Shown here one piece after another: positions 26,167 to 28,178 of a stretch of 49,816 bases of DNA; position 1 is the first letter of the stretch, and each line of letters starts with the position of its first letter. Origin of the DNA: an uncultured Paraprevotella sp. (lineage in GTDB: Bacteria > Bacteroidota > Bacteroidia > Bacteroidales > Bacteroidaceae). The notes under the pieces were generated by a model. It had not been told where the DNA came from. It worked only from the letters and a program-made list of their open reading frames with translations, and did not search any database. The position numbers and the translations under genes were made by a program. The DNA is taken from assembly GCA_944320775.1 (NCBI GenBank), contig CALUIV010000023.1, positions 1 through 49,816 on the forward strand, written 5' to 3'.

Positions 26167-26613
26167 CTATTTTGTGAAGATGTTGGACAATGAGCAAGGA
26201 CGTATATCTCCCTCCAAAGAAATGATTGTGTAACGTTTTGGAGCTTCATTAATCAGTAAATAGGAGGATCGGGCTGTTTTATAAATGGTAAGATTGTGGT
26301 CTTTCTTATTGATTTGCATGAGGATTTTACTGTCTTTCCCAATATTTTTCTTTCCTTCTTTTTTCAGTGAACGAACAGCACGTCGTTTGGTTGCGGAAAG
26401 ATATTCCAGACTTTTTATACGTCGCCAGTCTAAAACAGACAGATTAGCATCTTCATTCTGTATGTTTTTCAGTTCCGCGCTTCTCATCATATCCTGTGAA
26501 TAATAGAATGATTCTATTCCGGATTTTTGAGATGTTTTATTATAAAGTATACTTTGTGCCTGACTGGTTGCAGTTGTAGCCAGTAAACAAATAAATAATA
26601 ACAGTTTTTTCAT
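26167..26613 (-). CDS. small exported protein of unknown function
   Basis: About 148 aa when started at the second ATG (MKKLLLFICLLATTATSQAQS), which is a clean signal peptide ending near residue 20. The mature part is short, basic and probably alpha-beta (SVLDWRRIKSLEYLSATKRRAVRSLKKEGK in the middle; NLTIYKTARSSYLLINE near the end). I do not recognise a characterised family; similar proteins seem confined to Bacteroidales. It is monocistronic and ends in its own terminator. Confidence 0.8.
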   Translation of the reverse strand: MKKLLLFICLLATTATSQAQSILYNKTSQKSGIESFYYSQDMMRSAELKNIQNEDANLSVLDWRRIKSLEYLSATKRRAVRSLKKEGKKNIGKDSKILMQINKKDHNLTIYKTARSSYLLINEAPKRYTIISLEGDIRPCSLSNIFTK

Positions 26614-26815
26614 AATCATTTGAGTTAAGTTTTTATATCAGTAAAAGTATAAAGAAGTTATTTAATTTGCAAGGATTACTCTTTAATTTTAAAAGAATTG
26701 GAGATATAAATAATCCACCGAAAGCAAGGATTTTGGGGGTTGCCTGTGGAAAAACGGAATAAGAGTGTGATAATAAAAGTAAAATCTGAACATACGTGTT
26801 TTTGTCATTTTTTCT

Positions 26816-26847
26816 ATTGTATATTGAATTAATTTTTATTATTTTTG
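26816..26847 (+). promoter_or_regulatory. promoter of the structured leader RNA and exported-protein operon
   Basis: ATTG at 26816-26819, a 20-bp spacer and TATTTTTG at 26840-26847, an exact TAnnTTTG. The predicted start point is near 26854. The same ATTG-N20-TAnnTTTG arrangement occurs at two promoters near feoB. A second -7-like box TATATTTG is at 26855-26862. The stretch 26620-26815 before the promoter is AT-rich and I see nothing else in it. Confidence 0.6.
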
Positions 26848-26853
26848 TGTTGT

Positions 26854-27168
26854 CTATATTTGCTGGAAGCCCCAAAGGGCATAGGTGGGTATGACACATA
26901 TACATAAAATGCGTATCTGTACGCTTTGGTTTTGACGATCTAAGAACTTCGCAACTTCATCGGTAAGTCAAGGACAAAGCAACGGGAACGCCTTATGGGG
27001 TGTACTATATATACCCTCATTGTTATTCATGCTTGTAGTGTGGAGACAAAAGGGATTGTTATATACATACACTGGCGTGGGGCTTTCAGCGTTGCTCGTT
27101 TCGACTTACCGGGCAATGCGAAGGCCTTTAGATCGTGGAACGGGTGACAGACTGGCTCCACGTTTTTT
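26854..27168 (+). ncRNA. candidate structured leader RNA or independent ncRNA
   Basis: The region from the predicted start to a U-rich hairpin is folded by four perfect pairing blocks in register: 26935-26943 with 27128-27136 (9 bp), 26947-26953 with 27117-27123 (7 bp), 26961-26969 with 27103-27111 (9 bp) and 26978-26984 with 27090-27096 (7 bp). A local hairpin GCGTA-TCTG-TACGC lies at 26911-26924. In addition 26862-26873 can pair with 27079-27090 over 12 positions with one G-U; because 27079-27090 lies inside the loop of the long stem, this would be a pseudoknot or an alternative fold. Whether it regulates the operon in cis or acts on its own is unknown. I do not recognise a known Rfam family from sequence. 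Confidence 0.6.
27134..27168 (+). terminator. terminator-like hairpin at the end of the leader RNA
   Basis: Stem CGTGGA (27134-27139) with TCCACG (27157-27162), then TTTTTT (27163-27168). The left arm shares bases 27134-27136 with the foot of the long upstream stem, so the two helices compete, as in attenuators. Confidence 0.55.
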
Positions 27169-27237
27169 ATGTCTATGAGAAAACTGTTATCAACACGCTT
27201 CATCGGAGCCGTGAGGCATCATAATATCATACCATGA
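27169..27237 (+). CDS. 22-codon leader ORF overlapping the operon's first gene
   Basis: ATG at 27169 (or 27175) opens MSMRKLLSTRFIGAVRHHN and stops at TGA 27235-27237. Its stop overlaps the ATG of the next gene as ATGA, the arrangement used for translational coupling. It begins directly after the U run of the upstream hairpin. A real peptide is not proven; the overlap is what makes it notable. Confidence 0.35.
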   Translation: MSMRKLLSTRFIGAVRHHNIIP

Positions 27238-28178
27238 AAGTGAAATTCTGGCTCATTGGCTTTGCATTCTTCTTTTCGTTTTGTGCATTTGCCCAGAAAA
27301 AGCCTACCATCATGATTCTTCCCAGCGACAACTGGTGCAATCAGCGTTATTTCATGACATCATTTTCCAATCAGGGAAGTACGGTTAAAGTTCCCAATTA
27401 CCAACAAGCCTTTATGGAAGATACCGAGCTGCCGCAAGTCATCAGCAAGGTGGGAGGCGTACTTACCGAATTGGGATATAGCTTGAAAGATGCCGAACAG
27501 GAAATAAAGAGTATTGCCACAAAAACAGCCGAGGATAATGTGACTTCCAGTAAGACAAGTGGTGCCGCGCTCAACGAAACCCCACTGGATGTGCTGAAGC
27601 GTCGGGTAAAGTCTGATATTGTAGTTCAAATATGGTGGCAACTGAATCGGGATTCAAAAGGGCATTCTGCATCCTTTACTCTCGAAGCCTTTGATGCCTA
27701 TACCAATAAGCGCATAGCTACCTCTACCGGTACCACCAAAACATCTAAAGAGATCATTCCTGTACTTTTGGAACAGGCCGTGAAAGAAAATATCAAGCCG
27801 TTTGACGAACAAATGTCGCGTTGGTATGACGAACAAAAGAAAAACGGACGGGAAATCATCCTGACTGTGCGTTGTTGGGATAGTTGGGAAAATGATTTGG
27901 AAACGGAATATGGCGGTAACGAATTGACTGACTGCATACAGGATTGGCTGGCGCAACATACGGTAAATGCTACCTATAATTTGAGTGACGGTACGGAAAC
28001 TTTTGCCCAATTTGAACAGGTACGCATTCCGTTGTTTGATGAACGTGGCAGGGCAATGGATGCCCGTTCTTTTGCTACAGAACTGAGGAAATATCTACAG
28101 AAGCCACCCTATAACATTACATCAAAAGTAATGATGAGAGGATTAGGAGAAGTTATTATTGTATTAGGAGAAAAATAG
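27234..28178 (+). CDS. exported protein, DUF6175-like
   Basis: A 314-aa protein with a signal peptide (MKVKFWLIGFAFFFSFCAFA, cut near 20). The mature N-terminus KKPTIMILPSDNWCNQRY has the strand-like form of CsgG/TolB-N/LPP20-related periplasmic domains, followed by helix PQVISKVGGVLTELGYSLKDAE and strands SDIVVQIWWQLN and HSASFTLEAFDAY. A second similar half follows (GREIILTVRCWDSWENDLE... to SKVMMRGLGEVIIVLGEK). I believe it matches the Bacteroidetes family DUF6175, whose function is unknown. First gene of a five-gene operon. Confidence 0.75.
   Translation: MKVKFWLIGFAFFFSFCAFAQKKPTIMILPSDNWCNQRYFMTSFSNQGSTVKVPNYQQAFMEDTELPQVISKVGGVLTELGYSLKDAEQEIKSIATKTAEDNVTSSKTSGAALNETPLDVLKRRVKSDIVVQIWWQLNRDSKGHSASFTLEAFDAYTNKRIATSTGTTKTSKEIIPVLLEQAVKENIKPFDEQMSRWYDEQKKNGREIILTVRCWDSWENDLETEYGGNELTDCIQDWLAQHTVNATYNLSDGTETFAQFEQVRIPLFDERGRAMDARSFATELRKYLQKPPYNITSKVMMRGLGEVIIVLGEK

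Follow-up and report, generated by a model that had tools for sequence, protein, structure and literature searches.

In the window, by which we mean the whole 49,816-nucleotide stretch of Paraprevotella DNA that was analysed, a leftward DUF4252 gene (26167-26619) is separated by an unusually structured gap from a DUF6175 gene (27234-28178, forward strand; Pfam PF19672, E 1.8e-107), beyond which lie four more rightward genes, none of them matching Pfam (E 0.01). The question raised by this locus is what kind of RNA the gap encodes and what that RNA does. An earlier note, made from the sequence alone, read positions 26854-27168 of the gap as a discrete structured RNA with a possible pseudoknot, folded beyond what chance would give. 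The computed fold of this stretch reaches -118.4 kcal/mol, whereas 100 dinucleotide shuffles of the same bases average -84.0 (sd 5.4) and none does as well (z -6.4). Combined with the family-wide covariation described below, this upholds the excess of structure over chance and leaves next to no weight for a fortuitous fold in an AT-rich gap, a reading for which no support was found.

The pairings listed in the earlier note are all present, on the forward strand. Four perfect helices join 26935-26984 with 27090-27136 in register: Pa (ACGATCTAA, 26935-26943, with TTAGATCGT, 27128-27136; 9 bp), Pb (CTTCGCA, 26947-26953, within the conserved AACTTCGCAA, with TGCGAAG, 27117-27123; 7 bp), Pc (CGGTAAGTC, 26961-26969, with GACTTACCG, 27103-27111; 9 bp) and Pd (AGCAACG, 26978-26984, with CGTTGCT, 27090-27096; 7 bp). 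Between the two arms lies an apical hairpin (26985-27078) whose length and sequence vary among relatives, and on the 5' side the GCGTA/TACGC hairpin P2 (26911-26924) is kept as GCGTTTAC..ACGC in most of the relatives shown. A crossing helix, PK5, joins GCTGGAAGCCCC (26862-26873) to GGGGCTTTCAGC (27079-27090) over 12 positions with one G-U. Since the 3' strand of PK5, as read from the sequence, sits immediately next to the 3' half of Pd, PK5 and the register have the topology of a classical pseudoknot and, being adjacent, could form together. Two further elements compete with the register and make alternative folds likely as well. One is a local helix, P3 (26930-26936 with 26967-26974; TTTTGAC with GTCAAGG), which overlaps Pa and the left strand of Pc by a few nucleotides; the other is the GTTGCTCGTT strand (27091-27100), which has three possible partners, namely the left strand of Pd, a GGGCAAT hairpin (27110-27119) and AACGGGTGAC of the terminator region (27139-27148). 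The earlier note had left a choice between a pseudoknot and a mutually exclusive fold; the crossing helix and the register could coexist, and the competing pairings make additional folds likely. The structure continues with a terminator-like hairpin (CGTGGA/TCCACG with a T6 tail, 27134-27168), the first three nucleotides of which are common to Pa, and with GGAGCC at 27205-27210, which lies 23 nucleotides 5' of the ATG at 27234 and complements GGCTCC (27154-27159) in the 3' arm of the terminator.

Relatives of this element are numerous. A blastn search with the 315 bases picked up relatives, often several per genome, in 21 genomes out of 61 (counting the window's own), and 27 of the relatives so found, when aligned, displayed a common architecture. 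The exact core pattern was recovered in at least 118 stretches on named genome contigs and on 2 viral contigs, the carriers being labelled, with few exceptions, as members of the Bacteroidales: Prevotella, Segatella copri, Paraprevotella xylaniphila, Bacteroides caecigallinarum, Phocaeicola and Parabacteroides distasonis, together with Muribaculaceae, Paludibacteraceae, Alistipes and others. Five core-pattern loci (L051, L081, L135, L137 and L141) bear Firmicutes-type labels, and these contigs are probably mis-binned. A scan with a covariance model, one of the checks proposed in the earlier note, was run with a model of the 3' domain built from 50 copies (R1); including the window's own genome it matched 93 of the 151 genomes in a family-level sample, with 1-17 copies each, and 22 of 198 in an order-level sample, and in a phylum-level sample of 296 it found the window's genome and none of the 295 others. 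The window's genome has two copies of the element; the second (G000:C21:33189-33281, L173) lies 5' of a gene for a 195-aa protein that looks membrane-bound. Plasmids searched with the window copy gave no match, and with the core of locus L084 they gave a single one, on the B. finegoldii plasmid NZ_OY725942.1 (R1, 54 bits); a phage search returned two unannotated faecal contigs.

For a quantitative comparison, 146 core matches were located in 150 loci; of these matches, 10 had too little downstream sequence, 3 had no open reading frame and 133 had one. Enough flanking sequence was available for 126 copies, from which 2 duplicates were dropped; exactly one TCGCAA anchor was present in 111, and 107 were left after redundancy filtering. 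Most copies had been gathered by the exact core motif, and the conservation of the core is therefore partly a product of selection. For every helix, the pairing of a copy's own two strands was then compared with that of strands mismatched between copies. Over the 107 non-redundant copies, this own-versus-cross comparison yielded z values of 46.6 for Pa, 37.7 for Pc, 10.6 for Pb and 5.9 for Pd (the 3' halves of Pc, Pb and Pa together occupy 27103-27136), and values of 9.2 for the complement downstream of the terminator, 8.0 for PK5, 7.9 for the terminator helix, 6.1 for the apical stem and 5.3 for P3. No covariation was found for P2 (z -0.6), for which the scoring windows were badly placed.

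A further comparison used an alignment of 35 copies whose apical loops are short, that of the window among them. At the pairs of Pa, Pb, Pd and the apical stem, 110 cells are changed on both sides, compared with 34.3 (sd 4.6) after shuffling and at most 17 when the structure is slid along the alignment, and the true structure is 95% paired; the count of further pair types was no higher than in the shuffles (36 versus 36.2). Individual helices contribute unequally: at one pair of Pa both sides are changed in up to 22 of the 35 sequences, in Pb both partners are exchanged at two pairs in 9 of the 35 sequences and five pairs are invariant, and in Pd 96.7% of the cells are paired and a single pair out of six shows changes in both partners. 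Covariation in homologs, the absence of which the earlier note had named in advance as fatal to its proposal, is strong for the register and positive for the crossing pairing. In 59 promoter-anchored copies PK5 scored 20.2, above all of 2000 permutations (17.6, sd 0.43; best 19.5), with examples such as TGCGGAAGCC/GGCTTCCGCA, GCAGAAAGCCT/GGGCTTTCTGC and GCAGAGGCC/GGCCTCTGC in relatives. The signal is weaker than that of the long-range helices: a strong PK5 (score at least 22) occurs in 37% of these 59 copies versus 18% of mismatched pairs, and the helix is weak in many copies.

The type of mismatch tolerated also bears on the strand. G-U exceeds A-C in Pa (48 versus 3), in P3 (95 versus 18) and in the downstream complement (67 versus 48), and is likewise in excess in PK5, which points to an RNA of the forward strand; this strand signal is missing in Pc, where A-C outnumbers G-U (28 versus 17), and in the terminator, where the two are about equal (39 A-C, 37 G-U). 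As to the partners of GTTGCTCGTT, covariation is unable to choose among them, because the strand hardly varies, partly as a result of copies having been selected by it (its invariance in alignments A2 and A3 stems in part from selection by the core pattern); variants are present in the blastn-found copies L005, L028 and L030. Over the 107 copies neither of its alternative pairings covaries (hpR, z -0.1; antiterminator, z 2.0). The partner in the terminator region approximates ACGRGYRAC in the 35- and 50-copy alignments, with changes that are mostly wobble-compatible, and its pairing with GTTGCTCGTT is part of the RNAalifold consensus that was used for R1.

Two points of the first description need correcting. 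TAnnTTTG, which we take to be the Bacteroidetes -7 box, peaks 100-119 nucleotides before TCGCAA, with 60 occurrences in two 10-nucleotide bins versus 1-9 in the other non-empty bins (111 copies), and a box at the expected distance of 96-123 nucleotides is found in 59 of the 107 copies. The box with the family's spacing in the window is TATTTTTG (26840-26847), 109 nucleotides before TCGCAA, and not TATATTTG (26855-26862). With TATTTTTG as the promoter box, RNA would be expected to start at about 26853, and the whole 5' strand of PK5 should be transcribed. At the other end, the idea of a unit that stops at 27168 has to be given up, as conserved pairing that covaries in relatives reaches 27205-27210.

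What lies further downstream was assessed in the 133 copies with an open reading frame, which in 124 of them spans 50 aa or more. Counted from the 3' edge of the core motif, the start codon lies at a median distance of 113 nucleotides (middle half 100-122, 5-95% range 74-196, n = 124). As the procedure for picking start codons was confined to 55-260 nucleotides, a control with random positions was run: 66% of the 124 copies have their start codon 95-130 nucleotides past the core, compared with 19% of 420 random picks in the same loci. This clustering, together with the covarying pairing past the terminator, indicates a 5' leader that acts in cis on the next gene and contains a terminator inside it. 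The structured RNA of the earlier note is therefore borne out by covariation, and its discreteness is not. The same two observations speak against a stand-alone small RNA acting in trans, with its 3' end at the terminator and the next gene as a mere neighbour; we regard such an RNA as improbable, even if a promoter box of its own, a terminator-like hairpin, many copies and diverse neighbours would all suit it.

We put at about two in three the probability that the element, a leader of some 380 nucleotides, acts in cis and gates the next gene by transcription attenuation, a reading built on sequence comparison. The relation between Pa and the terminator is central to it. When helices were picked strictly (Watson-Crick, at least 4 bp, followed by a U-tract), 90 of the 107 copies showed both Pa and the terminator; the two overlap by at least 1 nucleotide in 67 and by at least 2 in 64 of these 90 and do not overlap in 23. 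Permissive picking with G-U allowed found sharing in 102 of 107, with some picks running into the U-tract, and at least four T in the eight nucleotides after the terminator stem in 93 of 107. Under the attenuation reading, one fold would join the 5' and 3' domains through Pa-Pd, with PK5 as a lock; Pa, the outermost of these helices, would then take up the beginning of the terminator stem and serve as the antiterminator, and polymerase would continue into the gene. The alternative fold would keep the 5' domain in P3 and let the 3' domain pair with itself, whereupon the terminator would form and stop transcription. Upon read-through, the GGGAG-type sequence beside the start codon would pair with the freed terminator arm. 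The antiterminator step and its direction, with the long-range fold allowing read-through, are what we infer from these overlaps in the sequence. Computed energies for the window, with the pseudoknot outside the model, are -112.8 kcal/mol with the terminator forced, -114.7 with Pa forced and -115.2 unforced; the two forced folds are almost equal in cost, and as forcing the terminator leaves the register intact except for 3 bp of Pa, the energies show no full refolding. A simple terminator scan restricted to loops of up to 8 nucleotides did not list the window's terminator, the stem of which has only 6 bp and a long loop.

Three loci (L031, L044 and L150) lack the U-tract behind the terminator stem and have in its place similar sequences of the TGAAC...TGATAATCA type. 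Judged by eye, L044 adjoins Vsr-like and AlbA-like genes and L150 OLD-like and UvrD-like genes, which gives them the look of defence or mobile islands, and in these three loci the leader terminator may be an integration site.

The genes behind the leader are very diverse. Family scans covered 116 of the 124 first-gene reading frames (the 8 left out include orthologues and one UpxY) and returned 102 Pfam families, the commonest being BspA-type LRR in 6 of the 116 proteins, with LytTR and BACON_2 in 3 each; among the first 25 families listed for each scan, no common pathway was seen. Six small HTH-like proteins cluster together by blast, and first genes of this kind recur across genera (L028, L047, L052, L069, L138 and L169), as do those for three LytTR-like proteins of 119-121 aa (L082, L085 and L136). 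An FkbH-like protein (below the curated cut-off) and a weakly acyl-carrier-like protein are also encoded behind the leader. On a viral contig (L149:648-2378) the element lies 5' of an EF-Tu-like gene that scores 500.6 bits, below the curated equivalog cut-off of 522.4 and above a subfamily cut-off, with a match that begins only at residue 55.

Such scatter could also be produced by a non-coding mobile element that spreads among genes and comes to lie before start codons by chance, and both the number of copies (up to 17 per genome) and their patchy distribution would fit, as would one pair of copies in genome G203 that are 92% identical, where comparisons of G203 with other genomes reach 77% at most. 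Against such an element, copies from one genome are just as alike (median identity 0.65-0.67) as copies from different genomes (0.65-0.66), a comparison made in four genomes that each offered 15-21 within-genome pairs; moreover, the large fold covaries strongly, and the leader can stay with one gene across species; we hold a mobile element to be very unlikely. In 15 of 54 cases the nearest element accompanied a homologous gene. Leader and DUF6175 gene occur together in different species (G000, G087 and G084), with a similar gene in B. caecigallinarum (L064), and among 13 matches to DUF6175-like genes the leader is missing at three relatives of 40-44% identity and at seven others. The DUF6175 protein of the window is 91% identical to a protein from another genus (G087), where the leader is present too; this identity and the similar L064 gene suggest a recent horizontal transfer of the leader-gene unit, the loci concerned being 27234-28178 of the window, L064 and L152.

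Because the genes behind the leader are unrelated, its core probably senses a global signal. A small molecule or an ion is a plausible candidate at rather less than even odds and a protein antiterminator a weaker one, the remainder falling to another RNA or to co-transcriptional kinetics. A specific version of the protein alternative is that the leader is the target of a NusG-paralogue antiterminator, UpxY or similar, which binds the RNA or the polymerase and suppresses the terminator. Seven of 26 upxY-like loci have the element directly 5' of the gene, with the UpxY identity established by NCBIfam NF033644 (151 bits at L142 and 133 bits at L113, cut-off 100), and UpxY antiterminators were recognized by eye behind the leader at L186, L188 and L191. 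In B. fragilis, UpxY prevents premature termination in the 5' leaders that precede upxY (PMC7819879). Yet the element is absent from the other 19 of the 26 loci (some of them near contig ends), most of the listed elements precede genes other than upxY, and six genomes with 4-6 copies each (G002, G007, G063, G066, G081 and G087) have no UpxY match at 1e-12. These counts leave UpxY unsupported as a universal factor, and we consider the dependence on a NusG paralogue unlikely.

To return to the attenuation reading, if it is true, a leader of some 380 nucleotides before unrelated accessory genes would constitute a major layer of gene control in many gut Bacteroidales, and the set of elements would be a list of candidate co-regulated loci. 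Cultured carriers, among them Paraprevotella xylaniphila, Parabacteroides distasonis and Segatella copri, allow tests of the switch.

How does the element compare with known systems? Searched with the whole window, Rfam 15 gave no match at the gathering threshold, so the family resemblance that the earlier note had thought worth seeking there did not materialize; at lax E-values there were only sub-threshold matches, two in the window stretch and ten in 20 of 30 related loci. Weak matches to Plasmodium RNase P, to miRNA and to CsrC were among candidates taken for chance, being sub-threshold. The leader is not described in the titles and abstract openings among the literature matches listed, the subscription literature being mostly beyond reach. 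Judged by the conservation and covariation of its sequence, the element stands for a real family of structured leader RNAs that occurs widely among Bacteroidales and has no counterpart in Rfam 15. A comparative-genomic survey of gut metagenomes (HMP2; PMC8040213) comprises 3161 intergenic RNA candidates of 27-219 bp, some of which could contain fragments of the element. The UpxY-regulated capsule leaders of B. fragilis, as presented in PMC7819879, are, like the element, Bacteroidales 5' leaders with an early transcription stop. Some elements likewise lie directly 5' of upxY genes, whereas the window copy precedes a DUF6175 gene and most of the listed copies precede other genes. We take the family to be new within a known kind. 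In B. thetaiotaomicron most mRNAs have a 5' UTR of 23 nucleotides (PMC7366714); the family is unusual in its size, its knotted fold and its independence of particular genes.

Two classes of regulatory leader offer the closest parallels, and the element is set beside each of them here. T-box leaders are long and have competing antiterminators and terminators; unlike them, the element gave no Rfam T-box match at the thresholds used, and neither aminoacyl-tRNA nor amino-acid functions stand out among the 25 commonest Pfam families of the genes behind it. Terminator-type riboswitches possess large knotted aptamers with a conserved core, alternative pairings, a terminator that overlaps the antiterminator, and a position in the leader. 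A conserved folded core, possible alternative pairings, a terminator-like hairpin overlapped by a putative antiterminator and the leader position recur in the element, for which comparison of sequences indicates a structured RNA in an mRNA 5' leader, whereas the context of the leader family is tied to no one ligand or pathway and its genes have no pathway in common. We tentatively entertain, with distinctly less than even confidence, that the family represents an undescribed, gene-independent class of sensor RNA with a knotted, aptamer-like core and up to 17 copies per genome, responding to a global signal (a second messenger, an ion, tRNA or the translation state) and controlling an accessory regulon that would comprise capsule antiterminators, BspA-like surface proteins, small LytTR/HTH regulators and biosynthetic genes. 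In its overall design, the predicted structure suggests a resemblance to a terminator-controlled riboswitch or an antiterminator leader.
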